Shown: positions 18,099-63,715 of the stretch, in pieces
Position numbering within the stretch: the first letter of the stretch is position 1
Layout: each line of letters opens with the position of its first letter
Assembly: GCF_016907915.1 (NCBI RefSeq)
Contig: NZ_JAFBCW010000007.1
Span: 42,044 to 106,043 of the forward strand
Reading direction: 5' to 3'
DNA length: 64,000 bases
From: Desulforadius tongensis
GTDB lineage: Bacteria > Bacillota > Desulfotomaculia > Desulfotomaculales > Desulfohalotomaculaceae
The notes under the pieces: model-generated
The model's database searches: none
What the model was told of the DNA's origin: nothing
The model's input: the letters and a program-made list of their open reading frames with translations, nothing else
Position numbers and translations under genes: made by a program

Positions 18099-18209
18099 CC
18101 GGTTTTAACTTGTTGTTTAAGCGTGATTTCAAAAAATTAAAGCAATAATTTTAGGACTGAAGAAGGATAGTTAATTGTAATATAGAATAGCTTTCAGGGA
18201 AGGATTAGT

Positions 18210-19268: not shown

Positions 19269-19273
19269 ACTGG

Positions 19274-37215: not shown

Positions 37216-37244
37216 TAAATATATGTGTATATAAGTATTTCCTC

Positions 37245-37378
37245 TAAAATCGCTGAGTTCTTTTTGACAAGAAGCGGGGGAACCAAATTTTTGGGGTGAA
37301 TCCCATTTAACATTTAATGGGTAGGGTACTTTCAACCCGAATCCGTCAGCTAACTTCGCAAGCGTTGAAAGAGGGGGG
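37245..37378 (+). ncRNA. c-di-AMP riboswitch (ydaO/yuaA class)
   Basis: The conserved ydaO/yuaA core is readable in order: ATCGCT, GGGGGAACCAAATTTTTGG with GGTGAATC, a variable hairpin, GGGTA, CAACCCGAATCCGTCAGC and TAACTTCGCAAGCG, ending GAAAGAGG. This class binds c-di-AMP and usually turns expression off through a downstream terminator, which is present at 37425-37453. The controlled gene is the aminomutase at 37513. c-di-AMP reports turgor and potassium status, so osmotic control is implied. Confidence 0.92.
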
Positions 37379-37424
37379 AAAGCAGTATTCTTAACTAGGA
37401 TACGCGTAGTTGAGTATTCCTGTA

Positions 37425-38886: not shown

Positions 38887-40161
38887 TCACGGTACCTGCT
38901 GGATTTTCATAATATATACTTCTGTACCACTGCTGCGGGTTTTATTCCATTTTAGCAGATCAGCCCACCAACCGGTAACGATATAACCGCCATCGCCGGC
39001 CTGCTGGATAGAAAACTGCCTGTCAAACCGGGTTCCTTTTAAAGTTTTCTCCCATATTTTTTTACCGTTGGGATCTGTTTTTATTAAGTAGAAGTTAAAT
39101 CCACCACTGTCTTTGGAGACAGTCCACCCTGCTGCCATGCAGCCCCGGTCATCGGTCTGCCGTACCGTTCTGCCAACTGCCCAGCCCTTACCGTTAAATG
39201 TTTTCTCCCATAATTTGCTGCCTTTACTGTCAGTTTTTATCAGCCAGGCACTGGAACCACCCGGGCTGCCGGTGGATGTTTCGCCGGTCAAAATATAGCC
39301 GCCGTCTTTTGTTTGTGTTACTGAATGTAATGCATCCCATCCCCTGCCGCCGAAGGTTTTTTCCCATTCCTTTTCTCCCCGGGCATTAGTTTTAATCATG
39401 TATCCATCGAAGTTTCCCGCACCGAAGGAATAGGTTTGACCAACCACGATATAGCCGCCGTCATTTGTCTGCTCAACATAGTTGGCCAGGTCAGCCTTAT
39501 GGCCACCAAAGGTTTTTTCCCACTCCAGGCGGCCTGAGGAACTGGTTTTGATAAGGTAGACATCTGTATCACCGGTCTTGGAGGCGGTTGTTTTACCGGC
39601 AATAATATACCCCCCGTCGCCGGTTTGCTGTACACATGAACCATAATCATCGCCGCTGTTTCCATAGGTTTTATGCCACTGTTTCCAACCGGAAGTGTTG
39701 GTTTTAACCAGGTATACGTCCTTGTTAGTGCTGCCGTAATCGGAATAGGATTCTGTTATTCCGGCAATGATGTACCCGCCGTCTTTTGTCTGCCGGATGT
39801 GTACACCGTAATCATCTCGAATGCCGCCGCAGCTTCGCTTCCACTGCAAAAGCCCCGATTTGTCAATTTTAATCAGGTAGACATCACGGCCCCCGGAGCC
39901 GTGTTGATAGCCGGAGACAGTTTCTCCCACTATGATATAACCGCCGTCATCAACTGGGCAGGCAGACAGGCCTCGGTCATCATTTTCACTGCCAAAAGTT
40001 TTTTCAAACTCCACGTCAATACCCGCTGCCTGGGCCCGGTTAATACCCAGATAACCTGAACATAAGAATACCAGTGCTGCTGCTGTTAGAGTCAGCAGCT
40101 TTAACAGACTGCCCGTCAATAACCGGCCGCTGACCGACCCGTGTGCAATTCTAAAAAACAC
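38887..40161 (-). CDS. Secreted seven-repeat beta-propeller-like protein
   Basis: A 424-residue exported protein: a signal peptide (about residues 20-46, ending AQA) and then seven repeats of about 50 residues. Each has the consensus QTxDGGYIIxGxT - DVYLIKT - G - WEKTFGG, fitting a seven-bladed propeller that fills the mature protein. The GTG start follows AAAGGGTA. Repeat proteins of this style are found at the surface of clostridia and archaea and are thought to bind other molecules; no enzyme motif is seen. It is divergent from, and just outside, the pilus island. Confidence 0.8.
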   Translation of the reverse strand: MFFRIAHGSVSGRLLTGSLLKLLTLTAAALVFLCSGYLGINRAQAAGIDVEFEKTFGSENDDRGLSACPVDDGGYIIVGETVSGYQHGSGGRDVYLIKIDKSGLLQWKRSCGGIRDDYGVHIRQTKDGGYIIAGITESYSDYGSTNKDVYLVKTNTSGWKQWHKTYGNSGDDYGSCVQQTGDGGYIIAGKTTASKTGDTDVYLIKTSSSGRLEWEKTFGGHKADLANYVEQTNDGGYIVVGQTYSFGAGNFDGYMIKTNARGEKEWEKTFGGRGWDALHSVTQTKDGGYILTGETSTGSPGGSSAWLIKTDSKGSKLWEKTFNGKGWAVGRTVRQTDDRGCMAAGWTVSKDSGGFNFYLIKTDPNGKKIWEKTLKGTRFDRQFSIQQAGDGGYIVTGWWADLLKWNKTRSSGTEVYIMKIQQVP

Positions 40162-40249
40162 TACCCTTTACACTCCCTTCCAATGGATTATTTATATGCT
40201 TAATTATACAAGAAATACTTCCATCAGCATCGGGCTGATTAATATTTTA

Positions 40250-40385
40250 ACATTTTTTTACCGGCACCAATTGTTTAACAGGAAATGAAAACAGGCTGTA
40301 GAAAATAATAAATTAAGGATACTTTAGTAAGGTGCCGCTTTCCAGGGTAAAACAGTGGTGCTGCAGATAATAAAAAAATCAGCAT
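40250..40385 (+). repeat. Direct repeat, left copy, flanking the GC-rich pilus island
   Basis: The first 66 bases (40250-40315) match 52649-52714 at 63 of 66 positions, and similarity continues with an 11-base indel and more mismatches through CTGCAGATA to about 40385. Most differences are transitions. In the right copy this sequence lies directly before pilD. Confidence 0.85.
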
Positions 40386-40473
40386 ATTAGCGGTTTGTTT
40401 GACATCGTTTGCCTTCTAATTAGTATATACAAATAATTTTTTAATTTTTTGTGGTAAAAACTTACCAATACAC

Positions 40474-40503
40474 TTGACAATGATAATTATTTTCAATTAG
40501 AAT
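40474..40503 (+). promoter_or_regulatory. Promoter with Fur-like box, start of GC-rich pilus cluster
   Basis: TTGACA (40474-40479), an 18-bp spacer and TAGAAT (40498-40503). The spacer contains TGATAATTATTTTCA (40481-40495), one mismatch from the 7-1-7 Fur consensus TGATAATnATTATCA. Occupancy would block the promoter, so transcription of the pilus cluster should rise when iron is scarce. Confidence 0.65.
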
Positions 40504-40620
40504 AATGACAAAGAATTTTTATGAATGCGGGGGCGTTTCCTATGACAGAAGCGTCTTCGGCCTGGGGGGGATGGATCGTTTTGGGAAAATCTGCCGGCGG
40601 GTGCTGGGGAGGGGGCGGGT

Positions 40621-40827
40621 ATGACACAAGACAATGAGAAAGTATTGATGAAAATCCGTCAATTATACGAATCTCTCTTCAGCCATAACGGTTACGGCGA
40701 AATGAAAATTGAGATGAGGATTCTAAAAAAGGGCCAGAAGGAGGTCATTATCCACTGCGGTAAGCAGTACCGCTACGTGGTGGACTTCTACCGGCGTCCG
40801 GAAAAGGATGCCAAGGGCGTCGGCTAG
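40621..40827 (+). CDS. Small hypothetical protein, first gene of pilus island
   Basis: A 68-residue basic protein, alpha then beta (KVLMKIRQLYESLF, then IEMRILKKGQKEVIIHCG and KQYRYVVDFYR). No family recognised. GGGAGGGGGCGG precedes the ATG. It is the first credible gene after the Fur-box promoter and is separated from the prepilin gene by a roughly 250-base GC-rich stretch capable of several hairpins. One Cys and three His are present but do not form a known metal motif. Confidence 0.65.
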   Translation: MTQDNEKVLMKIRQLYESLFSHNGYGEMKIEMRILKKGQKEVIIHCGKQYRYVVDFYRRPEKDAKGVG

Positions 40828-41077
40828 GCTTGATAGGCGTGGGGCATTTAAGATAGCTGAAATGTCCCGGGAGGTTTCCCCGGGGTGGGGGAATCTGGGA
40901 GAAAAGGGGGTGGTGCGGCAAAAGAAGGCAAATGCTGCCCGGGCGGTTTTACCCGGCCGAAGGAAGGCGGGCGCGGGGTCCGTAAGAAGGTATTTTAATT
41001 AACTAACTGAAGAAGGTGGTTCTGTGGGTGAACCCTTCTGAGAAAAGATATTTTCTTGGAAAGGGGTTTTTATTTTT
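40828..41077 (+). other. GC-rich hairpin-forming leader before prepilin gene
   Basis: A 250-base gap without a credible gene. It can form GGGGCATTT / AAATGTCCC, then CCCGGG-based and CCGGG / CCCGG hairpins, and then loses GC content near 40995 before the prepilin ribosome site (AAAGGGG). No known riboswitch consensus was found; c-di-GMP (GEMM) cores were looked for specifically. Confidence 0.35.
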
Positions 41078-42058
41078 ATGGGACAAAAATTTAAGAACAA
41101 GATTAAAAGTCGGTTGAAAGGCCAGAACGGTTTCACCCTGATCGAGCTGATCATCGTCGTCGCCATTATGGGCTTTCTGGTAGCCATGCTTGCTCCCCGC
41201 CTGGCCAATGTGGCCACCGGAGCGTCGGACACCATATGCGATACAAACCAGCAGCGGCTGCGTCAGGTTTTGGGTGCTTATACCGAAAATTACGGACAGC
41301 TGCCCAACAAACTGACGAACCTGGTTATCAACACAGGTGCCGACCCTTATACTGCTGCTGATTATGCTGATACAGATGCCGCTGGGTATATCGATGACAA
41401 TAAAAAAGATTATAAAGAAGTATTATCCAGAGATATGGACGCTATGGTGCACTTGAAGCGGCACGTACTGAATGCGGCAGAGGCGCAGGAGCTTATAGAT
41501 TTGGGGATTAGCCAAGTGTATAACCTCAACCCTTCTTCAACGGTTGACGAAAAATATAGCAGTACTTATCCTCAAGCAGCTCACCCCTATATGGAACTTG
41601 TAGATGTCAAAGAAGGTCTTTCGGTGCTGATGGTGGGTGCCGGCTGCCCGGATGCAGCCACTGACAACTTTAGCGATATTACTGATTCTACAGATCCGGA
41701 TTGGGGCAATCCTGATCTGATTTACCGCATCATTCTTGGCGTTGGTCCGGACAGCGACTTGGTTACAGAGGGCCAGATCCAGGATGCCGCCCTTTGCCCG
41801 AACGGTATGCGGCGGGGTGATCACTTCATTTACAACAACTACAACGTTATTGTTCCTAGGCTGCAGGCCACGGTTGATAGAATTGCCACAGGCGATGCCG
41901 AGAAAGTTGATGTAGAGTATCCAAGCGGAGAGGTTAAGACTTTCGATTTGACAGAAGCCCAGGAAGTTTGGCAGTTTACCACATTTTGCCCTGAAGGTTG
42001 CCAGTTGATGGGCGTCGGCGAGCCGGAGCTTAAAATTACCGTAACTACCAAGTCGTAA
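41078..42058 (+). CDS. Type IV prepilin-like protein
   Basis: A 326-residue prepilin with an 18-residue basic leader (GQNG before the cleavage site), cleaved G18/F19, Glu at +5 (FTLIEL) and a hydrophobic helix to about residue 42. The globular part is unusually large and acidic, with Cys pairs near the middle and end that may form disulfides. It is the best candidate for the main subunit of the island's pilus or pseudopilus, processed by the PilD at 52.8 kb. Length is about twice that of common major pilins. Confidence 0.85.
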   Translation: MGQKFKNKIKSRLKGQNGFTLIELIIVVAIMGFLVAMLAPRLANVATGASDTICDTNQQRLRQVLGAYTENYGQLPNKLTNLVINTGADPYTAADYADTDAAGYIDDNKKDYKEVLSRDMDAMVHLKRHVLNAAEAQELIDLGISQVYNLNPSSTVDEKYSSTYPQAAHPYMELVDVKEGLSVLMVGAGCPDAATDNFSDITDSTDPDWGNPDLIYRIILGVGPDSDLVTEGQIQDAALCPNGMRRGDHFIYNNYNVIVPRLQATVDRIATGDAEKVDVEYPSGEVKTFDLTEAQEVWQFTTFCPEGCQLMGVGEPELKITVTTKS

Positions 42059-42202
42059 TTAACAAGAGCTAACTATTAACAATCTGACCGAATTGTTTGA
42101 AACAGGGGTGTGGGCGGCAGCGCCCGCCCTTGTTTCAGCTCGGGAAGCCCTCCGCCGGATGGCGGCGGGCTGAGGATTTTGTATGTAAACGGAGGTGCCG
42201 CC

Positions 42203-43597
42203 TTGGCTGCAGATGTAAGAACCCGGCTTGGCAAGTGGCGACAGGCCGATGCAAAATACCGGCTTCTTTTTTTGATGACGGCCCTATACCCCCTGCTGGT
42301 GGTGCCCGGCCAGTGGAAATTATCCTTTTGGGGAAATTACCAGTGGGATTACTTTTACGCCCCGCGTTATCTGGTTCTGGCGGCTGTATCCCTGTGGGCC
42401 CTGGCTGTCCTGTTTAAGGAAAGGGCCAGGTTCAGCCATCGCGCCTTCATCCCCCTGGGGGTGTTTCTCTTTTGCGCTCTGGTGGCCGTCTCCCTGGCGG
42501 CCTACCCCCTGACCGCCTGGGTGGGCGCGCCCCTGCGCTACACCGGCCTGTGCACTTATCTTTTTTGTATCATCCTGTTCATTCTCGCTTCCTGCACAGC
42601 CGATGGCACCAGGCTTCTGCCGTACATGGCCGCCAGTGCCGCCGTGGTTTCCTTTTTGGCGGTGCTCCAGGCCTGCGGATTTAACCCGGTGCCCCATGAG
42701 GCCTTCCGCGAAGGTTTGACTGCCTACGGCACTTTGGGCAACCCCGACTATTTGGGCACCTATGCTGCCTTTGTCCTGCCTGCCGCCCTGCAGATTTACC
42801 TGGGCCGCCGCCGGCCGGTTTGGCTGGCTGCCGCCGCCGTCATTTACGCTGGGCTGCTGGTGAGCTTTAACTGGGGCGCTTGGCTGGGTGCATTTTGGGG
42901 GCTGGCCGTTATCGTCCGCTACAACTTTTCCAGCGGGAGTAAAAAGGCCTGGCTGGCGCCGGCCGGGGCGCTGCTGGCCGTGACCTTGGTTTTTGCGGCC
43001 GGAGTGGTATTTTGGGGACTGGCGGGTAAGGTGGGGGTGGTCAGCCTCAGGGAGCAGGCGGCGGTTTGGGAGAACACCCTGCAGCTGCTGTCCGGCTGCT
43101 GGGCCTTTGGCCTGGGGCCCGACCACCTGGTGCATGTCGTCCGGATGCTGCCCTTTGCTTTTCTGCTGGATAAAACCCCCAGCCTTTATATTGAAACGGC
43201 CGTTGCCATGGGTGCTTTTGCCTTGCTGGCCTATCTGACGTTTTTCGGGTTCGTTTTAAGGGAAATGGGACGCCAGCTGCCGGCCCGCTGCGAATTATTG
43301 GCCATGATTGTGGTTTACCTGGTCCAGGGGCTTTTCCACTTTGAGACTATCCTGGTTATGCCTCTGTTCTGGATCGTGTTGGGGTTGGTTATGGCCGGCG
43401 CCGACGGGGCGCTGCCGGGAGAAGCGGCGGCAAAAGAAGGTGCTTTAACCACGGAGAACGCGCGAGGGGGGAGTAAAAATGGGCCGGCGGTTTCGGCGGG
43501 CGGGCGGCTTTACCCTGCTGGAAGTGATTATCATAGTGGCCGTCCTGGGCTTTTTGGCCGCCATGGTGATGCCTTTCATCGGCCACCTGGACAATAA
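42203..43597 (+). CDS. O-antigen ligase/Wzy-like polytopic membrane protein
   Basis: A 464-residue protein with 10-12 membrane helices. The segment GTLGNPDYLGTYAAFVLP and a late loop (GLGPDHLVH ... LDKTPSLYIETAVAMGAFALLAYL region) fit the Wzy_C/O-antigen-ligase family, which includes pilin O-oligosaccharyltransferases. The usual His-Asn in the late loop (PHN) reads TPS, so a key residue may be missing. The TTG at 42203 follows GGAGGTG. Its 3' end overlaps the next gene by 119 bases in another frame, which is long for an operon overlap. Pilin glycosylation is inferred from context. Confidence 0.7.
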   Translation: MAADVRTRLGKWRQADAKYRLLFLMTALYPLLVVPGQWKLSFWGNYQWDYFYAPRYLVLAAVSLWALAVLFKERARFSHRAFIPLGVFLFCALVAVSLAAYPLTAWVGAPLRYTGLCTYLFCIILFILASCTADGTRLLPYMAASAAVVSFLAVLQACGFNPVPHEAFREGLTAYGTLGNPDYLGTYAAFVLPAALQIYLGRRRPVWLAAAAVIYAGLLVSFNWGAWLGAFWGLAVIVRYNFSSGSKKAWLAPAGALLAVTLVFAAGVVFWGLAGKVGVVSLREQAAVWENTLQLLSGCWAFGLGPDHLVHVVRMLPFAFLLDKTPSLYIETAVAMGAFALLAYLTFFGFVLREMGRQLPARCELLAMIVVYLVQGLFHFETILVMPLFWIVLGLVMAGADGALPGEAAAKEGALTTENARGGSKNGPAVSAGGRLYPAGSDYHSGRPGLFGRHGDAFHRPPGQ

Positions 43598-45137
43598 GCA
43601 GCGGATCAAGGCCACCCGGGAGCGGCTGGAAGCCGTCCGCACCGCCCTGGTCGGCCCGCAGAACACTTACGACGAGCGGGGGCTGCGGGTGGTTCGGGGT
43701 TATGCCGGGGACATGGATGCTCTGCCTAAACTGTATAGGTTTAACTGGGATGATGTGAATAACCGCTGGAATGCGGTGGCTGAGGAAGTTTATCACGGCG
43801 GCGACCCGGAAGCCGCTCCTCCATATATCGGCCAACCCTGCGGCCTGTGGGAAAAACAGCCCGCCGCAGGGGAAGATCTGGGAGCCAACTGGAAGGGACC
43901 TTACCTGAACTACCCTGAGGCTGTTTTCGCCAACCAGGATAAAAAAGACGTCGTTCCTCTGCGCAGGACCGAAGGGATCCTGGCCGACGCTTGGGGCCGG
44001 GCGCTGTTTTTTATCAAGGAGCAGGGTGATCCCGGCGATCCCAACAGCATCTACCTGCTGGTGGTAAGCGCCGGCCCGGACGGCAGGGTGGAACTGCCGT
44101 CGGAAAACGACACGTGGCCGGGAGTGAGCCCGCCGGCGCCGTTGATGAGGAATTCCTATCAAAACGCAGCTGATCCGGACAACAAAAACAATGACAATAT
44201 TGTCCTGGAAATCACCCCGGAAGAGTGGTTTAAGCCCAACGAGAGCGTCCAGAGAAAACAAACCGTCCGTATCTTGGAGGAAATCCGCGCCGCTCTGCTG
44301 GGCCCGGCGGATGCCTTCGACCCTTCGGGCCGGTGCATCGTGGGGGGGTATATCGGAGATATGGGCCAGTGGCCCACGCTGTGGCAGTGGGATGCTGATC
44401 ATTGGGATCCTGGCTGGTATGAAGGCCAGCCCCGGGGATTGTGGACCTGGGACACCGCTGAGGGTTACAGCGATCATGATCAAGGCGGCGCATCCGACCC
44501 CACGGGGTTTTGCTGGCGGGGACCTTATCTGCAAAAGCCCTGGGGGGTCGGAGAAGACGAGGTCTTGAGGGACACCTGGGGTACCCCGTTGCGGTTTAGA
44601 TTGAGCGAAGACGAAACAACGCTTAGAATTACCAGCGCCGGTGGGGATAAAAATTTTGATACTGCAGATGACATCTGGGAAGGCAACGAGGATAAAATCA
44701 AGGATGACCTGCAAGTTGTCATCAGGGATACAGAATGGAAAGCAGTGGGTATGACCGTGGAAGGAAAGATAGTCAACAACACTCAGAAAAAGTATGTCCG
44801 AGTCTATGAGTATGATGAGCAGGGTAATATTATCGGGTACCACGATGAGGAAGCGCCGCCGGCCCAGCAGCCGGATCCGGCCGAAGTGGAGATTACCTTT
44901 CACCATCAACCTGAAAAATCTCTAACGGAAACATTTACTGTCGATCCCGGCCAAACTATATTGTTTCAGCTGTGCGGGGGCGATGTTTTTGGAGGGGTGC
45001 GGCGGCTTGATATAGCCGCAGGCCCGGGACAGTTAAAGAGCCCCGAAAACGTTAAGGTATTCGTGGGTGCCGGTGGGACACAGTCGCCGGTGGTGGAAAA
45101 GCTGGTAATTATTGTTGAAAGCCCGTCAGGCCCGTAA
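43479..45137 (+). CDS. Large pseudopilin with duplicated globular domain
   Basis: A 552-residue protein with a prepilin leader cleaved at G10/F11 (FTLLEV, Glu at +5) and a membrane helix to about residue 35. Two similar globular units follow: about 38-215 and about 258-425. Each has xxLEAVRTALxGP, a GGYxGDM/GYAGDM motif, a GLW segment, GPYL and a DxWGxxLxF segment. A beta-rich C-terminal domain (430-552) completes it. The size and duplication suggest a tip or minor pilin with a binding role. GAGGGGGG precedes the ATG. Confidence 0.82.
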   Translation: MGRRFRRAGGFTLLEVIIIVAVLGFLAAMVMPFIGHLDNKQRIKATRERLEAVRTALVGPQNTYDERGLRVVRGYAGDMDALPKLYRFNWDDVNNRWNAVAEEVYHGGDPEAAPPYIGQPCGLWEKQPAAGEDLGANWKGPYLNYPEAVFANQDKKDVVPLRRTEGILADAWGRALFFIKEQGDPGDPNSIYLLVVSAGPDGRVELPSENDTWPGVSPPAPLMRNSYQNAADPDNKNNDNIVLEITPEEWFKPNESVQRKQTVRILEEIRAALLGPADAFDPSGRCIVGGYIGDMGQWPTLWQWDADHWDPGWYEGQPRGLWTWDTAEGYSDHDQGGASDPTGFCWRGPYLQKPWGVGEDEVLRDTWGTPLRFRLSEDETTLRITSAGGDKNFDTADDIWEGNEDKIKDDLQVVIRDTEWKAVGMTVEGKIVNNTQKKYVRVYEYDEQGNIIGYHDEEAPPAQQPDPAEVEITFHHQPEKSLTETFTVDPGQTILFQLCGGDVFGGVRRLDIAAGPGQLKSPENVKVFVGAGGTQSPVVEKLVIIVESPSGP

Positions 45138-45243
45138 GCTGGCGCGCCGGGCGAACAGAAGCTCGTGAACCGTATTTTCCAGGGGAACGCTGGTGGTGGA
45201 AAAAATTATTGTGTCTAAATATAACATAGGCGGGTGCTGACAT

Positions 45244-46932
45244 ATGCCGGAGATTACAGATTGCAAATGCCCCGTGTGTGACGGCCGGAACCCGGCGGGC
45301 CGGGAAACGTGCCTGTATTGCGGGCAGCCGCTGCACGATGATTTGCAGCCCGCGGCACCAGTTTATGCCCGGCGGGCCGGGAGAAAGACCGCCGGGGCCA
45401 GATCTCCCCTGTCTGTTCTGGTGCTGGAAACAGACGGGAAGGAGCTGCGGGCGGCGGTAGTGCGGCGGGGGCTGCGGGGTTTTTCACTGGAACACTGCCT
45501 GAAGTTGGAACGCCTTGCGGAAGACGGCCCGGTCACCGGGGAGGAGCTGGAAGCGGTGGCATCCCGCATTACCCGGTGCCCCAAAAACGTGGTGCTGGTC
45601 ACTCCTTTGGTATCTATGGTGGAACTTTCCCTGGAAGCCGGGCTGGTAAAAAAAGTGCGCTCCTACCAGTTGAAGGAGATGCTGCGCTGGGAGGCCGAGC
45701 CTTACATGACCATTCCCGCCGGCGAAAGCCTGGTGGGCTACCAGCTGGGCCTCGAGTCCGGGGACGGACAGGTGGAAGTGTGGGTGACCATGCTGCCCGC
45801 CGAAGACTTTGCTGCCATAAAAAAAACCTTTGCCGATACCGGCTTCCGGCTGAAAAGGGTATACCCTCCGGATTTGTGCTTCCCGGTGGGCGCTCTGCTG
45901 GCGGAAAAGGAGAAGAAGAAGGAAAACGTGGCGGTGGTGGACCTGGGGTTTCAGACGATGAAGGTGGCTCTGGTGGAGGAACGCGAAATAAGCAGTCTCC
46001 GAACCATGCCGACGGGTCTGGCGGCGGCGGAGGTTGGGCTGGCCGATCTGCCCGCGTCGGAGTTGGAATCGGACCTGGCAAGGGTTTTTGAAGACCCCAC
46101 GGTGTTGAGCTGCAGGATGCTGCTGACGGGGCCGGGAGCCCTGGATGAAAAAATACTGGAATTTTTTCAAAGGGAGACGCAGGGGCGGGCTTCGGCTCTG
46201 TCCATTCGCTCCGGCGGTTTCTCTCCGGAGTATGCCGCGGTGTTCGGTGCCGGCCTGCGGGAGCTGTTTTTTCGGGGCGGCTGGAAAACCGCCGGCATCG
46301 ACGACAGCGTGGACCCGGTCAGGCGGTTCCGGGAGCGGGTGCACGTGTTTCCCATCCTGGCGGTGACCGTCATCGCTGTGTTTTTTATGGCCCACTACCT
46401 GGTTTTGAATTTCCAGATGAAGCGGGCCGAGGTGCAGCTGGCGGTGCTGACGCAGCAGCGGGACGAGCTGAAGGGGAAAGCGGGGCGGTACGACAGCCTG
46501 AAAAAAGAGGCAGAGGAGCTGGAGCAAAAGCGGCTGCTGACTGCTGAGAAAATCAGGTTTCTGGAGGCGGGGGCGGTCAACCAGGAGGTGGAAAAAGTCC
46601 TGGCGGCCCTGTTGCGGCACGGGCCGCCGGATCTGCTTTTCGCTCAAATGGTGCCGGCCGGGGCGGATCGCTGGCTGGTGAGGGGCATCAGCCGCAGCGC
46701 CGTCTCTCCCAGCACCCTGGCCCTGAAAATGCAGGGCGAGGAGTGGTGCGAATACGCCAGAGTAATGGAGGTCACCTGGAAAGAGAAAGCCATTAAGCAA
46801 ACAACGCTGTCCGTGGATGGCTTGGAAGAGTCTGAGGTTGTAGAGGAAGCTGACGGGTACGGGTTTACTATGGAAATCGCGAAAAAGATTGAGCAGATTG
46901 CCGGGCCGGGAGAAGGGGATGCGGTGTATTGA
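45244..46932 (+). CDS. PilM-PilN fusion with N-terminal zinc ribbon
   Basis: A 562-residue protein with three parts: a zinc ribbon (C9-x2-C12 and C23-x2-C26), an actin-like PilM domain (about 55-335, with VLVLETDGKELRAAVV, MLRWEAEPYM and VAVVDLGFQTMKVALV), and a PilN-like part made of a membrane helix (about 367-387), a coiled coil and a ferredoxin-like C-terminal domain. In usual systems PilM and PilN are separate and PilM grips the cytoplasmic tail of PilN; here they are one chain. The next gene encodes PilO, and the order PilM-N-O is kept. The reading frame is continuous with no sign of error. Confidence 0.85.
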   Translation: MPEITDCKCPVCDGRNPAGRETCLYCGQPLHDDLQPAAPVYARRAGRKTAGARSPLSVLVLETDGKELRAAVVRRGLRGFSLEHCLKLERLAEDGPVTGEELEAVASRITRCPKNVVLVTPLVSMVELSLEAGLVKKVRSYQLKEMLRWEAEPYMTIPAGESLVGYQLGLESGDGQVEVWVTMLPAEDFAAIKKTFADTGFRLKRVYPPDLCFPVGALLAEKEKKKENVAVVDLGFQTMKVALVEEREISSLRTMPTGLAAAEVGLADLPASELESDLARVFEDPTVLSCRMLLTGPGALDEKILEFFQRETQGRASALSIRSGGFSPEYAAVFGAGLRELFFRGGWKTAGIDDSVDPVRRFRERVHVFPILAVTVIAVFFMAHYLVLNFQMKRAEVQLAVLTQQRDELKGKAGRYDSLKKEAEELEQKRLLTAEKIRFLEAGAVNQEVEKVLAALLRHGPPDLLFAQMVPAGADRWLVRGISRSAVSPSTLALKMQGEEWCEYARVMEVTWKEKAIKQTTLSVDGLEESEVVEEADGYGFTMEIAKKIEQIAGPGEGDAVY

Positions 46933-47600
46933 AGCGCAAGCTGACTAAAATGGAAAAGTTCCTGCTGGCGGCGGTGGTCCTGGCGGGATGTTTTTACCTC
47001 TACCTGAACAAGGTGTATGACCCCAAGATGGAGTTGTATAAAAGCACCCTGGATAAAATCCAGGGGGTGCAGCAGGAAATAGCCGGTATCGGCGAGATCG
47101 CCGACCTGGGGAAAATGACCGAAAAGGTGGCGGAGGAAAAGAAACAGCTTCGGGAATTGGAAGCCCGGGCGGCGGAACTCGACTCCAGGAAGGTCCGGGC
47201 CGCGGCGGAGGGCAGCGCGGTGGTAAAGAAAATCAAGGAATTGGCGCTGCGGAACGGCCTGAAGATCATGAAGCTGAAAATCGTCCTGCCGGGTGAAGAG
47301 GAAGAAAAGGCCGAAGCCCGGAAAAAATCCGCCGCCAAGAAAAAAACACCCACTGTCAATGATCAGGCGGGCGGTGGAGAGGATGGTGTAACCAAGGGGA
47401 ATGTGCCGCTTCCCGAGGCGGTGACCATGATGGAGTGGACGGAGTACACCCTGTCCCTGGAGGGCGACCACCGCGGTCTGGTGGGTTACGTCCATGATTT
47501 GGATGAAAAAATGACCAGCTGCGTGGTGATCAAGAGCATCGGTGTGCTGATGGACGAAAATACGGGGCGGCTGAAGATAGCCATGACCCTGCTGATTTAG
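46929..47600 (+). CDS. PilO-like inner-membrane alignment protein
   Basis: A 223-residue protein with one membrane helix (about 9-26), a coiled coil (about 30-90) and a C-terminal alpha/beta domain, the PilO/GspM plan. The TTG start overlaps the stop of the PilM-PilN fusion by 4 bases, so the two are coupled. A Lys/Ala-rich insertion lies near residues 118-140. Sequence similarity to PilO is low but topology and position agree. Confidence 0.78.
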   Translation: MKRKLTKMEKFLLAAVVLAGCFYLYLNKVYDPKMELYKSTLDKIQGVQQEIAGIGEIADLGKMTEKVAEEKKQLRELEARAAELDSRKVRAAAEGSAVVKKIKELALRNGLKIMKLKIVLPGEEEEKAEARKKSAAKKKTPTVNDQAGGGEDGVTKGNVPLPEAVTMMEWTEYTLSLEGDHRGLVGYVHDLDEKMTSCVVIKSIGVLMDENTGRLKIAMTLLI

Positions 47601-47631
47601 CGGCGCGCCAAAAAATGAAAGGAGGATTCGC

Positions 47632-48732
47632 ATGAGCGAGTCAGCCGTGCTGTTTAAGAACAGGGCTGCCTCCAGCATGGAGGAACTGCTGGAGGAAACA
47701 AAGCGCCACGAGGGATCGGACCTGCACATTACGGCCAACATGCCCCCGGTGCTCCGGGTGTCGGGGGAACTGGTGCCACTGGAAAAATATGATCCCCTGT
47801 CGCCTGAGGATATTAAAAGATTGTTGTACAGCATTCTCACCCCCCGGCAGGTGGAGATTCTGGAAAAGCACTTTGCCGTGGACCTGGCCATTGGCCTAGG
47901 CGGCATCGGTCGTTTCCGCCTCAACGCTTATTTCCAGCGGGGGTGCATCACCTGTGCTTTCCGCCGGCTGGCGGACGAAATCCCCCAGCTGGAGACCCTG
48001 GGACTGCCCCGGTCTGTATACGGCCTACCGGATTTGGTGAACGGGCTGGTGCTGGTGACCGGGCCCACCGGCAGCGGTAAGTCCACCACCCTGGCCGCCA
48101 TCATCGACCGGATCAACAGCCTCTACCGGCGCAACATCATCACCGTGGAGGACCCGGTGGAATACGTCCACCTGCACCGGAACTGCATCATCAACCAGCG
48201 GGAGCTGTACGCCGACGTGGAGTCCTTTGCCGATGCCCTGCGCTCGGCCCTGCGGGCGGACCCCGACGTGATCATGGTGGGGGAGATGCGGGACCTGGAG
48301 ACAATCCGCACGGCTTTGAGGGCGGCGGAAACTGGGCACCTGGTGTTTTCCACCCTGCACTCCCGGGACGCTGTTTCATCCATCAACCGGGTTATCGGTG
48401 TATTCCCCGCCGAGGAGCAGGGCCAGATCCGGCAGCAGCTGTCCACTACTTTGAAAGCGGTGGTCTCCCAGCAGCTCCTGCCCCGGGCAGGCGGCCGGGG
48501 GCGGGTGCTGGCCTCGGAGGTGATGATGGTGACGCCGGCCATCGGCAACCTGATCCGCCTGGGCAAACTGGAACATATTTACCTGGCCATCGAGACCGGG
48601 ATGAAACTGGGTATGCAGACCATGGAACAGTCCCTGGAAGCCCTGGCTAGGGCCGGGCAGATTGACCGGGAAACAGCGGTGAAGAAGGCCCGGGTTCCCA
48701 GGCGGATGAGGGAGAAGTTGGGCCTTAAATAA
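47632..48732 (+). CDS. pilT: Pilus retraction ATPase PilT
   Basis: A 366-residue hexameric ATPase of the PilT family. Motifs are the N-terminal SDLHITANMPPVLRV, Walker A GPTGSGKST (about 143-151), the Asp box, Walker B PDVIMVGEMRDLETI and the His box ending in GHLVFSTLHSRDA. GAAAGGAGG precedes the ATG. It is the only PilT in the window, so the native-looking second pilus set may depend on it for retraction. Confidence 0.93.
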   Translation: MSESAVLFKNRAASSMEELLEETKRHEGSDLHITANMPPVLRVSGELVPLEKYDPLSPEDIKRLLYSILTPRQVEILEKHFAVDLAIGLGGIGRFRLNAYFQRGCITCAFRRLADEIPQLETLGLPRSVYGLPDLVNGLVLVTGPTGSGKSTTLAAIIDRINSLYRRNIITVEDPVEYVHLHRNCIINQRELYADVESFADALRSALRADPDVIMVGEMRDLETIRTALRAAETGHLVFSTLHSRDAVSSINRVIGVFPAEEQGQIRQQLSTTLKAVVSQQLLPRAGGRGRVLASEVMMVTPAIGNLIRLGKLEHIYLAIETGMKLGMQTMEQSLEALARAGQIDRETAVKKARVPRRMREKLGLK

Positions 48733-48746
48733 ACTAAGAAGACGGA

Positions 48747-50387
48747 GTGGCAATGGCAAAACAGAGGTTGGGAGAATTTCTTATAAGCAGGGGCATCCTC
48801 AGCCAGGAGAAACTGGCCGAGGCGTTAAGGCTCCACCGGGTGCTGAAAAAACGGCTGGGCGAGGTTCTGGTGGATCAGGGGTACCTGCGGGAAGAGCAGT
48901 TGACCGCGCTTTTGGGTGAATTTTTCGGCATGGAGGTCTTTTCGGAGAAAGATGTAGAGTTAACCCCGGAACTGGCAGCCCTGGTGCCCGGGCCGGTGGC
49001 CCGGCGGAATAACATCGTCCCCGTGGCCCAGCGGGGCAATGAGCTGCTGGTGGCCTGCGCCGAACCGGTGCCCAGAGCCGTCCTGGAAAACCTGGGCCGG
49101 ATCAGCGGCAGACAGGTGCGCCCCGTCCTCATGGGCTTTTCGGCACTGGCGGCGCTGCTGTACCGGGCCTACGGCCAGGGAAATGAACAGCTCTCCGCAG
49201 CGGCGAGGGACGTTGTGCCGGAGTCCCCGGACTACGCTGTCAAGATTTTAGAGAGAATCATTGTAACAGCTGTGGCTCAGCGGGCTTCGGACCTACACCT
49301 GGAGCCGGACAGCGGCGGCCTGCGGGTGCGCATGCGGGTGGACGGCAAACTGCGAACGCTGGAAGTATTGCCCGCTGCGGTGATGCCCCTGGTGATATCC
49401 CGGATTAAAATCCTGGGCAACATGAACATAGCCGAAAAGCGGGCTCCCCAGGACGGGGGTTTTTTGTTCAAGCAGGAAGACGGCCCCGGCACCAATATCA
49501 GGATTTCCACCATGCCCTGTGCTGGTGGGGAGAAGGCGGTGCTGCGGCTCTTTTCCCCCTATGACCGATCCTTGGAGCTGGAGAACCTGGGCATGGAAAA
49601 GGACCTGCTGGCACAATTCAAGAAAACCATCCAGCTGCCCCATGGGCTGATCCTGGTTACCGGACCCACCGGCAGCGGCAAAACCTTCACCCTTTATTCG
49701 GCATTAAAGAGCCTGCGCAGCGACAGTGTGAATATCATCACCATCGAGGATCCCATCGAATTTCAGATGGACGGCATTACCCAGGTGCAGGTGGACGAAA
49801 CATCCAAGAAAATGACTTTCAGCAGCGCCCTGCGGTCGGTATTGCGGCAGGATCCCGATGTGATCATGGTGGGGGAGATGCGGGATGGCGAAACGGCTAG
49901 GCTGGCCCTGCAGGCCGCCTTGACCGGCCATATCGTCCTTTCCACCCTGCACACCAATGATGCGGTGAGTGCTGTGGATCGTCTCATCGACATGGGTTGC
50001 GAGCCCTACTTGGTCAGTTCGGCTTTGAGGGGGGTCCTGGCCCAGCGGTTGGTTCGGGTGATCTGCCCCAGGTGCCGGGTGGAGTACGTTCCTTCTCCGG
50101 CAGAGCTGGAGCTTTTGGGGCTCCCCCCCCACCGGAAAGAGGTCTTTTACACCGGCCGGGGATGCAGCTACTGCCGGGATGAAGGGTACCGGGGCCGGAC
50201 GGGGATATACGAATTTCTGGAGATTAATCGTGATATTCAGAAGCTCATCGCCAAGGGCAGGGACTCCACCGCCATCCGGGAAAGTGTTAGGGGCACCATG
50301 CGCACCCTGCGGGAAGACGGGATCATCAAGCTGCGCCGGGGCGTGGCCGGGATCACCGATATTTACAGGGTCACCATGGAAATATAA
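48747..50387 (+). CDS. pilB: Pilus assembly ATPase PilB/GspE (island copy)
   Basis: A 546-residue extension ATPase with an N-terminal MshEN/GspE-N domain (1-150), Walker A GPTGSGKT (about 306), Walker B PDVIMVGEMRDGETA, and a tetracysteine zinc knuckle (CPRC near 441 and CSYC near 474). It drives pilin addition at the inner membrane with PilC. It starts 14 bp after pilT. A second, only moderately similar PilB is at 53.6 kb. Confidence 0.93.
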   Translation: MAMAKQRLGEFLISRGILSQEKLAEALRLHRVLKKRLGEVLVDQGYLREEQLTALLGEFFGMEVFSEKDVELTPELAALVPGPVARRNNIVPVAQRGNELLVACAEPVPRAVLENLGRISGRQVRPVLMGFSALAALLYRAYGQGNEQLSAAARDVVPESPDYAVKILERIIVTAVAQRASDLHLEPDSGGLRVRMRVDGKLRTLEVLPAAVMPLVISRIKILGNMNIAEKRAPQDGGFLFKQEDGPGTNIRISTMPCAGGEKAVLRLFSPYDRSLELENLGMEKDLLAQFKKTIQLPHGLILVTGPTGSGKTFTLYSALKSLRSDSVNIITIEDPIEFQMDGITQVQVDETSKKMTFSSALRSVLRQDPDVIMVGEMRDGETARLALQAALTGHIVLSTLHTNDAVSAVDRLIDMGCEPYLVSSALRGVLAQRLVRVICPRCRVEYVPSPAELELLGLPPHRKEVFYTGRGCSYCRDEGYRGRTGIYEFLEINRDIQKLIAKGRDSTAIRESVRGTMRTLREDGIIKLRRGVAGITDIYRVTMEI

Positions 50388-50409
50388 GCTTTTGAAAGGA
50401 GCGTGTGCG

Positions 50410-51234
50410 GTGAAGCGCGGGGATTGGCATATATTTATAACAGGGTATATAGCGGTTTTTGGGGTCATGGTGGCGTTCTTGACGGTGTTTTTGCTGCCGG
50501 CCCCGGCGGGTGCCCACTCGGCACCGGAAAAGCCGGTGGATTTACCGCCGCTGTTCTTTTATGAAGGAGAACGAATGGTACGGGTAAGTTTCAAGGATGT
50601 GCAGGAGCACTACCGGCACGAGACGGGACATCCGGAAGAGTTTGATATGGTCTTTTCTTACCGGGGTTTTCTGGAAGCTAAAAAAGAAATCTGGGGCGGC
50701 GAAATACCCAGGCGGGAAGATATCCAGGTAATCAGCCGGCTTCCCTCTCCTTCGTCGGTTCTGGCGCTGCGATTCATCACCGGCGGCGAGGAGCCGGCCG
50801 GGGACGGTTTCCGGCTGGTACTGCCCAACGGCACGCTGGTGCAGGATTTTTCATACCCCAACCTGCATAAGCTGGCGGGGTCGATCACAACGGAGAACTA
50901 CGCCTTTACCGTTATCCGCAGGTCCACGGGAGAGTCCGTTACGATGAAGGTGAAGGAGGGAGTTTTAACGGAAGAGTACTTCAACCTGCGGTCAATGGTG
51001 CACACCTATAACCCCAGGAAAGCCACTGAGGAGGAAGTGAATAAATATGTGTCTGTATTGGGTTCCCTGAAGCAATTTTTTATTGATTCCCAGCCTTGGC
51101 AGCTATTCGAGGGCGTCAAAAGGCCATTTCCCTTCCTGCAGGTGCTCTTTGCCGCTATTGGTATCATTTTACTTATTGGTGTAGTAGACGTCTGGAGGGA
51201 GATCACCGGGAAGAAAAACAGGCAGGTGGCCTAA
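50410..51234 (+). CDS. Membrane-anchored FmdE-like domain protein
   Basis: A 274-residue protein with a cleavable or anchoring N-terminal helix (8-30), an extracytoplasmic domain (about 35-240) and a C-terminal membrane helix (about 240-262). The domain contains blocks resembling FmdE (formylmethanofuran dehydrogenase subunit E-like): HETGHPEEFDMVFSYRGF in the place of the His/Cys motif, EDIQVIS, and NYAFTVIRRSTGESVTM. The usual cysteine is missing. The GTG at 50410 follows AAAGGAG. The role in a pilus operon is unknown; a sensor or binding domain is possible. The family call is from motif resemblance only. Confidence 0.55.
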   Translation: MKRGDWHIFITGYIAVFGVMVAFLTVFLLPAPAGAHSAPEKPVDLPPLFFYEGERMVRVSFKDVQEHYRHETGHPEEFDMVFSYRGFLEAKKEIWGGEIPRREDIQVISRLPSPSSVLALRFITGGEEPAGDGFRLVLPNGTLVQDFSYPNLHKLAGSITTENYAFTVIRRSTGESVTMKVKEGVLTEEYFNLRSMVHTYNPRKATEEEVNKYVSVLGSLKQFFIDSQPWQLFEGVKRPFPFLQVLFAAIGIILLIGVVDVWREITGKKNRQVA

Positions 51235-51260
51235 ATAAGGAAAGGAAGGTGTGAAGGTTT

Positions 51261-52499
51261 GTGCCTGAGTATGTATACGAGGGGATCAACACCAGCGGGA
51301 AAAGGCTTAGGGGCCGGGTGTCCGGCGTCAGTCTGTCCGAGGTCGGCAGCAGCCTGAGGCGCCAGGGGCTGAGGATTACCAGTTTGCGGGAAGTAGATGA
51401 AGACCCCGTTCAGAAGGAGGACGCCCTGGATCTGAACAGTGTTTTAACCAGGGTGAGCCGAGTCAAAAGCTACGATGTGGTGTTGCTGCTCAGGCAGCTG
51501 GGGGCTCTGATTAAGGCCGGAGTTTCCATCGTACTCTCCCTATCCATCCTGGAAAACCAGTCCACCAACCGGAAAATAAAGCAAATCCTGGCCGATGTGC
51601 GCCGGAAAGTAGAGGCCGGAAACTCTTTGAGCGAGGCCATGCAGCAGTTCCCGCGGGTCTTTTCCCCCACGATCACCTATATCATTAAAACAGGGGAAAC
51701 CAGCGGTTTGCTGGACACGGCTATCCTGCAGGTCACCGACTACTGGGAGGAAAAGCTGGCCTTAAGGCAGCAGATCGTCACCAGTATGATCTATCCGGTG
51801 ATCGTCCTGCTGATCTCCATTGGGGTGGTGGGTTTTATCATCGGTTACGTTATTCCCAGAATGATGGTTTTTCTTGAGATGATGGGCGGTGATCTTCCCT
51901 GGACCACCCAGTTGCTGGTTGACATCGGGGGAAACATATCTACCAAGCTGCCCCAAATCGGCATGGGCCTAGGGGCTGCGGTGTTGGCCGGAGTGCTGTT
52001 TTACCTCTGGCCGCCGGGCAAATTTTTTGTTGACCGTCATATCTTCAAAGTACCTATCATCGGCGTGATTTTTCAATACTCCAGTATTATTTTCTTTGCC
52101 CGGACCCTGGCCATGCTGATCGGCAGCGGCATTTCCATTGTGGATGGGCTGAGGGCCACTCGGGATTCCATAAGCAACAGGGCGGTAAAAAAAGTCGTCC
52201 ACGGGATGGAAGAAAAAGTTCTGGCCGGAGGGAACCTTTCCGACCCGCTGTTAAAAGGGGTGAAGATATTTCCTCCCATGGTGGGCAACATGGTCAAGGT
52301 GGGGGAAGAAACCGGAGGGATGGACACGTCCCTGGCTCTGGTGGCGGAAATTTATACCCAGCTCCTGGAATTCAGGATCAGGAAGATGATCAGCCTTATC
52401 GAGCCCGTCATGCTCGTAGTGCTGGGAGGTATTGTTGGCTTCATCGCCGTCGCGCTGGTCGGTGCCATTCTGGCCGGTTACGGCAATGTTACCGGGTAA
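51261..52499 (+). CDS. pilC: Pilus platform protein PilC/GspF (island copy)
   Basis: A 412-residue GspF-type membrane platform with two similar halves, each ending in membrane helices (about 175-200, 225-250 and 380-405). Signature segments are LLRQLGALIKAGVSI and GEETGGMDTSLALVAEIY. The start is a GTG with AGGAAAGGAAGG upstream. It works with PilB to add and remove subunits. It is the last gene of the GC-rich set. The remaining gap to 52648 is AT-rich and shows no gene. Confidence 0.92.
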   Translation: MPEYVYEGINTSGKRLRGRVSGVSLSEVGSSLRRQGLRITSLREVDEDPVQKEDALDLNSVLTRVSRVKSYDVVLLLRQLGALIKAGVSIVLSLSILENQSTNRKIKQILADVRRKVEAGNSLSEAMQQFPRVFSPTITYIIKTGETSGLLDTAILQVTDYWEEKLALRQQIVTSMIYPVIVLLISIGVVGFIIGYVIPRMMVFLEMMGGDLPWTTQLLVDIGGNISTKLPQIGMGLGAAVLAGVLFYLWPPGKFFVDRHIFKVPIIGVIFQYSSIIFFARTLAMLIGSGISIVDGLRATRDSISNRAVKKVVHGMEEKVLAGGNLSDPLLKGVKIFPPMVGNMVKVGEETGGMDTSLALVAEIYTQLLEFRIRKMISLIEPVMLVVLGGIVGFIAVALVGAILAGYGNVTG

Positions 52500-52648
52500 A
52501 AAAACATATATCTTCAAAAAGGAAAACACGCTGTTACTTTTAAATTCTTATGTACTTGTATTTTTTTGTTTGTAACTATTGCCGGATATTGGTTGCGGTA
52601 AACGTGCAGCGGATTAGTCTGCCCTTTTTAGGGGTGCTGAATAGTTAC

Positions 52649-52771
52649 ACATTTTTTTACCGGCACTAATTGTTTGACAGGAAATGAAAACAGACTGTAG
52701 AAAATAATAAATTAGTAAAGTACCATTTTCCAAGATAGAACAGATGTGCTGCAGATATGATGAAAAGCAGC
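52649..52771 (+). repeat. Direct repeat, right copy, upstream of pilD
   Basis: Partner of the repeat at 40250-40385. It ends about 18 bp before the pilD start codon. It contains TTGACA (52674-52679) and a weak -10 TAGAAA (52698-52703), 18-bp spacing, so it may be the promoter of the pilD operon; in the left copy the -35 reads TTAACA and is weaker. Confidence 0.85.
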
Positions 52772-52788: not shown

Positions 52789-53541
52789 ATGTTTGATGAG
52801 TTAATTGCTGCCATACTGGGTGCCTGTATCGGTAGTTTTCTCAATGTTTGTATTTGCCGTATACCAAAGAAGCAATCGGTAATATACACCCCATCCCACT
52901 GTCCATGCTGCGGCCGTAAGCTGGGGGCGGCAGATTTGGTGCCTGTTTTTAGTTATCTGCTGCTGAAGGGCCGCTGTCGGTACTGTAAAGCTAAAATATC
53001 TCCCCGGTACCCGCTGGTGGAACTGCTTACGGCAGTACTTTTTCTTGCTGCCTACTCCTTTTGGGGGTGGCACTGGCAGACCGTTTCCATGGTGGTGTTT
53101 TTTTCTCTGCTTGTATCGGTGTCTGTAATTGATATTTATTATCAGATTATTCCCGACAGAATACTGCTGGCCGGTTCAATTATTGGATTGCCCTTTATCA
53201 TGCTTTCTTCTTTTGATAAGTTGATAAACGGTGCAGTTGGTTTTTTTGCCGCCGGGCTGCTGATGCTGGCCATTGCCCTGGCATCCAAGGGAGGCATGGG
53301 TGGCGGTGATATCAAGTTAAGTGCGGTAATGGGCCTGTTTTTGGGCTGGCAGAATGTTTTGGTAGCCCTGTTCATTGCTTTTTTAACCGGTGGTTTGAGC
53401 GGTGCTTTTCTGCTGGCTGCCGGGCTAAAGGAAAGAAGGGATGCTGTACCTTTTGGCCCTTACCTGGCTCTGGGCGGTTTAATTGCCGCTTTTGGAGGCA
53501 GTGAAATAATTAACTGGTATGTAAGTGTTTGCGGCTTGTAA
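52789..53541 (+). CDS. pilD: Prepilin peptidase PilD
   Basis: A 250-residue bifunctional prepilin leader peptidase/N-methyltransferase. The cytoplasmic zinc knuckle has C38/C41 and C63/C66; the two catalytic aspartates lie in VIDIYYQIIPD (about 114) and GGGD (about 174). Seven to eight membrane helices. The ATG at 52789 follows GGGAGG; the frame is open upstream only into the repeat. It is the only prepilin peptidase in the window and can serve both pilus sets. Confidence 0.94.
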   Translation: MFDELIAAILGACIGSFLNVCICRIPKKQSVIYTPSHCPCCGRKLGAADLVPVFSYLLLKGRCRYCKAKISPRYPLVELLTAVLFLAAYSFWGWHWQTVSMVVFFSLLVSVSVIDIYYQIIPDRILLAGSIIGLPFIMLSSFDKLINGAVGFFAAGLLMLAIALASKGGMGGGDIKLSAVMGLFLGWQNVLVALFIAFLTGGLSGAFLLAAGLKERRDAVPFGPYLALGGLIAAFGGSEIINWYVSVCGL

Positions 53542-62932: not shown

Positions 62933-63130
62933 ACTACCTCGGGCACAAGGCCCGAGGCTTCCGGTGGTAACTCCAAGCCTTCTGCATACAGCAGTGGCTT
63001 CTCATCGTTCCCCGGTTAACCGCCGGCGAGTTTACGCCTGACGGCAGCCTTTTACGGCTGGGCTGGATTCACTGCAGCCCGCATGTTAGCCGGCTGCAGC
63101 AATATTCATACTGGCATTGAAATCTGCGTT
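62931..63130 (-). ncRNA. Right-end/omega-RNA (reRNA) region of a TnpB element
   Basis: Downstream of the tnpB remnant, on its strand, lies the hairpin CCTCGGGC / GCCCGAGG (62937-62957) followed by TAGTTCA, a typical right-end terminus of IS200/IS605-group elements. In TnpB systems the RNA from the 3' end of tnpB to this point is the scaffold, and the bases beyond it (on the minus strand, CAATCTCCTAATTTTA) act as guide. Whether it is still transcribed is unknown. Confidence 0.45.
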
Positions 63131-63715
63131 TGCCTGGTAGCCGCAGGCTTTGCATTGAAAGATGGCCGGTTGCCTTTTTCAGTATGGCCGCATATATGGC
63201 AGCGCTGCGATGTATACTTCGGGCTCACCTGTACCACTTTCAGTCCTTCGGCAAGGGCTTTGTATTCTATGAAGGAACGCAGCTGGCGGAAATTCCAGTT
63301 ATGCAGCTTACGGTTCATTTGACGTGAAAGCTTAACCCGTTCTCTTATGTAAGACAAATCTTCCAGCTGAATAACTGCATTATACCGCTTAGCAATATTA
63401 ACAATCTGCCTGCTGATTTTGTGGTTTACGTCCCTCATGTACCGCTGTTCTTGATTACCGATGGCTTTAATCTTTTTCAGCAGTTTTTTCCTGCCCAGTT
63501 TACGCCGCAGTTCTGTATAGTGGCGGCGTTTTTGGCTGCAGCGTTTGCCGCTAAAAAATTTGATTACCTGTCTAGGCACGGCGAGGACAGCGAGATTATT
63601 AATGCCCAGGTCAATACCCATGACGGCCGATGCAGCCCGTTCCGGCACTTCATATTTGTAACTGATATTTAAGATATGGCAGTTTAAGCGATAATTAAAA
63701 CCGCAGCGAACGATT
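63086..63715 (-). pseudogene. Broken TnpB (IS200/IS605 group)
   Basis: The remnant holds the RuvC-like core of TnpB: VMGIDLGINNLAV (first Asp), IQLEDLSYI (Glu) and the first zinc-finger pair RCHICG. A one-base deletion in an A run at 63158-63160 (plus strand) shifts the frame; restoring it gives FQCKACGYQANADFNAS, the second zinc pair and last catalytic Asp, with a stop at 63086. The 5' end is also missing: homology stops near 63715 at the junction with an IS66 fragment. The 180-codon frame at 63106-63648 is the uninterrupted part. Inactive. Confidence 0.85.

Follow-up and report, generated by a model that had tools for sequence, protein, structure and literature searches.

A GC-rich type IV pilus operon with a predicted Fur site in the gap between prop and pilD of Desulforadius tongensis

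How did a set of pilus genes richer in G+C than its surroundings come to lie beside a resident pilus operon in Desulforadius tongensis, and when would it be expressed? The set occupies 40.5-52.5 kb of the window, i.e., of the whole 64,000-nucleotide stretch of contig NZ_JAFBCW010000007.1 analysed here, and to judge from its sequence it is a nearly complete type IV pilus operon. Its left neighbour is prop, a gene for a propeller-repeat-type protein, and its right neighbour is the prepilin peptidase gene pilD. Our answer, which we consider reasonably probable, is that a foreign pilus operon was inserted into the gap between prop and pilD, that the gap was thereby duplicated, and that low iron would release the operon from predicted repression by Fur. 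Within this answer, there is good support for an import into the prop-pilD gap that left two copies of the gap, and the use of the fibre, which may be to reach or hold iron sources or cells under iron hunger, is the part of which we are least certain. Type IV pili are usually linked to motility, DNA uptake and adhesion. If our answer is true, a conserved operon under iron-repressor control makes pilus-assisted iron acquisition in Gram-positive anaerobes directly testable.

Flanking repeats, insertion site and composition

The island is flanked by two direct repeats whose 66-base cores (40250-40315 and 52649-52714) differ at exactly three positions. The homology as a whole covers 152 alignment columns (40231-40383 against 52630-52771) at 78% identity with a single 11-base indel, which bears out the first-pass annotation of this DNA, where the cores and a weaker similarity beyond them had been described. 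The right copy had also been placed immediately upstream of pilD, and it does end 17 bases 5' of the pilD ATG at 52789. A BLAST search of the complete host draft genome with the left repeat found two places only (E ~3e-30). The presence of the repeat at many unrelated loci, which had been named as an argument against an insertion, was thus not observed, and a common genomic repeat was rejected for the host. In our survey of 113 genomes of the order, host included, the matches listed besides the two host copies were short and at chance level. Mismatches are rarer in the core (3 of 66) than in the arms (21 of 79; Fisher p 0.0003). This uneven conservation suggests that the core was retained for a regulatory reason rather than as a mere remnant, and on this comparison it seems to be held by selection. 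When the core was compared with pilD upstream regions elsewhere, nine out of ten loci scored within the range of shuffled sequences and the tenth, L043, one point above the maximum.

The expected empty site is, judging by gene order, the pair of prop and pilD in G054, G016 and G068, where the two genes are divergent neighbours with 0.15-0.28 kb between the aligned parts. Without the island the host gap would be 228 bases long, as calculated by subtraction with the right repeat copy alone. The expectation that the propeller gene would adjoin pilD in relatives was thus borne out in three genomes, which belong to two other families and are not sister strains of the host. Homologues of prop (E 1e-40) were found in 21 of the 113 genomes; the six other host-family genomes had none. 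Among the 14 prop neighbourhoods inspected in 13 genomes, prop and pilD form the divergent pair in the three genomes named and a tandem pair 0.8 kb apart in G034, pilD lies two genes from prop in G073, and pilT adjoins prop in six (G040, G072, G069, G034, G048 and G068); the remaining loci have neither pilD nor pilT nearby. With pilD or pilT as its neighbour in several families, prop may encode a pilus-linked surface protein.

The features of the locus are as follows (lengths of proteins in amino acids, aa):

38887-40161, minus strand: prop, propeller-repeat-type protein, left neighbour; sub-cutoff NCBIfam matches to SBBP propeller and delta_60_rpt, no Pfam family
40231-40383, no strand: left direct repeat, core 40250-40315
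40474-40503, plus strand: predicted sigma-A promoter TTGACA-18-TAGAAT, 11/12 consensus matches
40481-40495, plus strand: predicted Fur box in the promoter spacer, 13/14, between -35 and -10
40621-40827, plus strand: conserved 68-aa leader gene; 298 homologues, heads cassettes
41078-42058, plus strand: pilA1, prepilin; N-methylation motif PF07963 above cut-off
42110-43597, plus strand: 495-aa protein, by eye only membrane and O-antigen-polymerase-like; no Pfam or NCBIfam family
43479-45137, plus strand: 552-aa pilin-like protein, the cassette marker gene; PF07963 just at cut-off
45244-46932, plus strand: PilM-PilN fusion with an N-terminal zinc-ribbon-like motif; profile and fold matches to PilM
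46929-47600, plus strand: PilO-like protein, labelled by position only; no Pfam family match
47632-48732, plus strand: PilT retraction ATPase; TIGR01420 447 bits (cut-off 319), Walker A present
48747-50387, plus strand: PilB extension ATPase with MshEN domain; PF00437 409 bits, PF05157, c-di-GMP motif NF053729 above cut-off, Walker A present
50410-51234, plus strand: 274-aa protein; no Pfam family
51261-52499, plus strand: PilC platform protein; PF00482
52592-52649, no strand: 58-base element that stops at the start of the right core; 88% identity to a single lone sequence at G021:C25:5327-5385
52630-52771, no strand: right direct repeat, core 52649-52714, upstream of pilD
52789-53541, plus strand: PilD prepilin peptidase, right neighbour; PF06750, PF01478
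53559-61396, plus strand: resident operon pilB-pilC-pilins-pilM-pilN-pilO, from library matches and synteny

The first-pass annotation had noted that the genes between the repeats are richer in G+C than those on both sides, and the numbers agree. The best two-breakpoint fit lies at 42.1 and 52.5 kb, with 58.2% G+C inside and 44.6% outside. The right edge is thereby found where it had been expected, whereas the left breakpoint, expected near 40.5 kb, falls 1.6 kb inside the island edge because the first 1.6 kb has a mixed composition. The ten island genes were also scored for G+C at third codon positions (GC3) against 151 open reading frames (ORFs) of the host (mean 0.49, SD 0.07). Six of them, i.e., the ORF at 42110 and the genes for PilM-PilN (0.74), the PilO-like protein, PilT (0.80), PilB (0.75) and PilC, exceed every background ORF. 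The leader gene (0.65) and the 552-aa pilin-like gene exceed 150 of the 151, and the 274-aa gene, scored as a 324-aa reading, exceeds 146. The flanking pilD and the resident pilB and pilC have ordinary, native GC3. The codon-usage check that had been proposed alongside gave weaker evidence (z -0.2 to -2.3). In GC3 and G+C the segment is thus atypical against the host background, as genomic islands are.

By gene content the island has several of the defining parts of a type IVa system: a PilB-type ATPase, the PilC platform, PilT and prepilins, two proteins carrying PF07963, with PilD encoded outside but adjacent. The PilM and PilN domains of the fusion are supported by a profile match to the solved PilM 2ych (E 3e-6), by a structural model (predicted local distance difference test, pLDDT, 75) that matches PilM 5eoy (E 3.5e-18) and by Pfam hits to PilN in three of eight aligned homologues, although the single sequence matched no Pfam family. 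In the predicted working of the machine the pilins would be processed by the PilD encoded next door, while PilB would extend and PilT would retract the fibre. An integrase or transposase was found in none of the ten island proteins (Pfam; nine also NCBIfam), in line with the earlier proposal that none was needed. The island pilT as the sole retraction motor of the host was rejected, as a further pilB-pilT-pilC set is present on contig C3.

As to the mechanism, we propose that the GC-rich operon was imported from another bacterium and that its incoming pilD upstream region recombined with the resident one, whereby the gap would be copied on each side and each native neighbour would keep a copy of its control region. 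The repeats would then be the scar of the insertion. Either a homologous single crossover or the uptake of a linear fragment attached through one homologous end would fit this proposal. Repeat-bordered duplications made by transformation are described for Streptococcus pneumoniae in the available text of PMC3784515. Like genomic islands without integrase, the segment has foreign composition, patchy occurrence and direct repeats at its edges; unlike them, it has repeats that are the intergenic region of its neighbours, and no integrase or transfer gene was recognised in it. The 58-base element before the right core resembles the terminus of a mobile element or of a lost insertion sequence; Rfam gave no credible match there.

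Distribution and ancestry of the cassette

The 552-aa marker is present in eight of the 113 genomes, host included, no two of which share a genus or family; the six other members of the host family all lack it. Together with the adjacency of prop and pilD in three genomes of other families, this is the pattern of absence typical of a genomic island. The gene order of the cassette is conserved in Desulfofarcimen acetoxidans DSM 771 (G029), which lacks the 495-aa and 274-aa genes, in G038, in Ammonifex thiophilus (G022), in the metagenome-assembled genome (MAG) HOT.MB2.58 (G089), in UBA911 (G077), which lacks the 274-aa gene, and, across contig breaks, in MAG.313 (G066). G038 is presumably Desulforamulus ruminis, a species that was named as a marker holder in the protein search. 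In G018 the marker stands alone on a 3.8-kb contig. More distant cassettes occur in Syntrophaceticus schinkii, Formimonas warabiya and others, and Clostridium aceticum has the leader gene as well as the marker gene in its genome. The leader gene heads the cassette in D. acetoxidans, G038, A. thiophilus, HOT.MB2.58, UBA911 and Syntrophaceticus and precedes pilA1 in MAG.313. The 495-aa gene is conserved in G038, A. thiophilus, HOT.MB2.58 and UBA911. For the 274-aa protein, one relative was found by protein search, and tblastn found relatives in G038, A. thiophilus, HOT.MB2.58 and MAG.313.

In the PilT tree the 11 cassette sequences form one clade (100/100), with the branching open at several inner forks. 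The island copy of the host is sister to that of MAG.313, a member of another family (100/99), and stands far from the other PilT of the host. Cassette mean GC3 lies 0.07-0.20 above the scored host ORFs in six of the seven cassette genomes tested, D. tongensis included: +0.20 in D. acetoxidans, +0.14 in MAG.313 (n = 7 host ORFs), +0.13 in A. thiophilus, +0.08 in HOT.MB2.58 (n = 10) and +0.07 in G038. We read the operon as a horizontally spread type IV pilus of iron starvation. More tentatively, and with some doubt, we suggest that it travels between families of anaerobic Firmicutes as an iron-regulon module that adopts the Fur- or DtxR-type repressor of each host, sometimes inside siderophore clusters, and aids iron gain.

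The slot itself appears to be variable. The resident pilB-pilC-pilins-pilMNO-tldD arrangement is syntenic up to tldD in G001, G002 and G003, and in G004 without pilB. Upstream of it, G001 has pilD-pilT-pilA-pilB-pilC and G002 a pilB-pilT-pilC set followed by pilD (L038, L053, L071, L078), so that three species of one genus each have a pilus set of their own in the slot. The host pilD groups with that of G002, apart from those of G001, G003 and G004. The locus would thus illustrate clearly how pilus sets are exchanged, probably through horizontal transfer, in one fixed place beside a resident pilus operon.

Some cassette surroundings elsewhere are worth recording. In A. thiophilus (L120), two TnpB/IS607-like copies (744-2232 and 17915-19403; 88.5% alike, direct orientation) bracket the cassette. 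In L122, from a Clostridiales MAG, a 65-base terminator-like direct repeat (7650-7714 and 19015-19080) brackets a divergent cassette, and a third copy at 21830-21925 suggests a common terminator. In UBA911, the repeated sequence consists of three short fragments of the neighbouring ATPase gene at a contig end, possibly an assembly artefact.

Predicted iron control of the operon

The island has a promoter of its own, predicted 90 bases downstream of the left repeat, with a Fur-box-like site in its spacer. The site is new here; the first-pass annotation had noted neither it nor the conserved leader gene (40621-40827). In 678 kb of host DNA, only four Fur-type sites with at least 13 of 14 matches were found: in the island promoter, inside the pilD coding region, at a cobalamin-synthase-like gene (identified by eye) and before feoA. 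A site of at least 13/14 occurs in one of 478 host upstream regions (ORFs of at least 150 aa; the shorter leader gene is outside the 478). As a positive control, the same consensus finds 13/14 and 12/14 sites before the host feoA-feoB. The host encodes two Fur-family proteins, both matching the NCBIfam Fur model best, below its cut-off, when the matched domains were translated. In sequence, the usual marks of a Fur regulon are thus present, i.e., a predicted box (by consensus) that overlaps a predicted promoter and genes for Fur-family regulators. It is predicted that Fur with iron would bind 40481-40495 and block the promoter in iron-rich cells, and that iron starvation would release this repression.

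Similar sites were predicted before related cassettes. In nine regions upstream of the 68-aa gene, eight of which head cassettes, the best site was compared with 1000 Markov sequences. Fur-type sites gave uncorrected p values of 0.001 in the host, D. acetoxidans and MAG.313 and 0.006 in HOT.MB2.58, whereas the UBA911 leader has a DtxR-type site (p 0.001) and that of A. thiophilus an IdeR-type site (p 0.012). Altogether, predicted sites of iron-repressor type precede six out of eight operons headed by the leader gene. Upstream of the D. acetoxidans cassette lie genes for a non-ribosomal peptide synthetase, an AMP-ligase with a chorismate-binding domain, a phosphopantetheinyl transferase, a thioesterase and a thiazolinyl imide reductase (TIGR01761 326 bits, cut-off 189), and downstream those for a methyltransferase, a Trep_Strep protein and an ABC transporter; all the ORFs listed are on one strand with the cassette. 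In our reading of these families, the neighbours are siderophore-type genes.

The 68-aa leader protein is modelled as a helix and three strands (pLDDT 83), a predicted fold for which no PDB match was found at E 0.001. It has an invariant CGKQYR motif and a wide spread. In G025 (L135, 7682-11857), where there is no pilus cassette, a transposase gene lies 0.4 kb downstream of the leader gene, with ExbB-like and DUF2149 genes after it.

Type IV pili are known in clostridia (PMC3244431, available text), and a word search of that survey text found no mention of iron or siderophores. The island resembles the type IVa pilus operons of Clostridia in having PilB, PilC, PilT, PilM/N, PilO-like protein, prepilins and a nearby PilD, and it differs from them in the fused PilM-PilN, the 552-aa pilin-like protein, the 68-aa leader and the predicted iron-type operator. 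In Clostridioides difficile, as far as the available text of PMC6311696 goes, pil genes likewise respond to the loss of fur: they go down in a fur mutant, no Fur box lies upstream and an indirect effect is suggested, whereas the box-like site inside the island promoter predicts Fur repression, i.e., the opposite sign. The Legionella pilin PilA2 aids growth in low iron according to the accessible part of PMC13170364 and is thus another type IV pilin with such a link, but its effect is independent of piliation and it belongs to a different locus in a Gram-negative species. A word search of PMC4137172 found nothing on pili. Among the titles and abstract openings searched outside subscription papers, neither this operon nor, for this group, any type IV pilus operon with a Fur box or under an iron repressor was reported.

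Alternative readings and further observations

The first-pass annotation had explained the repeats by a Campbell-type event, in which a circle carrying the operon and pilD-upstream homology recombined once with the chromosome. We regard this as a possible if doubtful route. The direct orientation of the repeats, their occurrence in two copies only, the right copy at pilD and the empty-site arrangement elsewhere all suit it, and in D. acetoxidans pilD directly follows the cassette, so a donor could have carried the pilD upstream region. Against it stand the 22% divergence of the copies, the better conservation of the core than of the arms and the lack of any recognised plasmid, phage or transfer gene among the island proteins (Pfam/NCBIfam), and the same arrangement would result from a linear fragment, homologous at one end, taken up by transformation. 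The better conserved core, and the position of both copies upstream of a pilus operon, would also suit a shared control region of two pilus operons that was duplicated for regulation and is not a by-product of insertion. This we consider unlikely, given that a separate promoter with a Fur-type site is predicted for the island 90 bases beyond the left repeat and that no such repeat was seen in cassette-bearing relatives among the matches listed. A shared control region is, however, compatible with insertion, and both could be true.

Very improbable, in our view, is an operon that was ancestral in the order and lost in most lineages, with a GC richness intrinsic to its genes. The cassette clade spans eight families with deep branches, and the GC3 excess is seen in six of seven genomes, even in the GC-rich Ammonifex. 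Such an ancestry fits poorly with the native GC3 of the resident pilB and pilC in the same host, the absence of the marker from all six other family members, the grouping of the host PilT with a different family (100/99) and the differing cassette neighbours among the flanks listed, judged mostly by eye. Concerning the iron link, it could be accidental, the Fur-like sequence being an AT-rich promoter spacer, as such spacers can resemble Fur boxes. We think this quite improbable, because five leaders have sites at uncorrected p values of at most 0.006 with two operator types, the feoAB control was positive and the D. acetoxidans cassette has a siderophore-type neighbourhood.

Several points weigh against an insertion followed by Fur control, the reading that we prefer. 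The arms of the repeats outside the core are only about 73% alike, so that the event would be old or the two copies would come from different lineages. The cassettes of G038, D. acetoxidans and HOT.MB2.58 are at other places without flanking repeats (searched up to 1.5 kb), so flanking repeats do not generally accompany the cassette and were rejected as a property of it. The first-pass annotation had named as contrary evidence relatives in which both pilus sets occur but the repeats do not, and this was found in part, as G038 has the cassette, another pilus set and no flanking repeats. The gene content to the left of the empty sites differs from that of the host, and some of the six marker-negative family genomes are incomplete drafts (G005, 85%). 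The composition of pilA1 is native (GC3 0.53, above 105 of 151 background ORFs), and the UBA911 cassette is not above its scored host ORFs in GC3, with only three of these. The operators were scored against consensus sequences, with three motif types per leader and uncorrected p values; that of A. thiophilus would fail a multiple-testing correction. Finally, motif scoring found no iron-type site in the leaders of the G038 and Syntrophaceticus cassettes, before the lone leader gene of G025 or in the divergent cassettes L122 and L123, where no leader gene was found.

Apart from the island, a scan of 35000-64000 gave no riboswitch before pilus genes at the gathering threshold; a c-di-AMP riboswitch was found at 37241-37380, upstream of the lysine 2,3-aminomutase-like gene kamA. 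Near the contig end, a TnpB-like fragment occupies 63106-63648, and an IS66-transposase-like sequence, identified by eye, lies beyond it.

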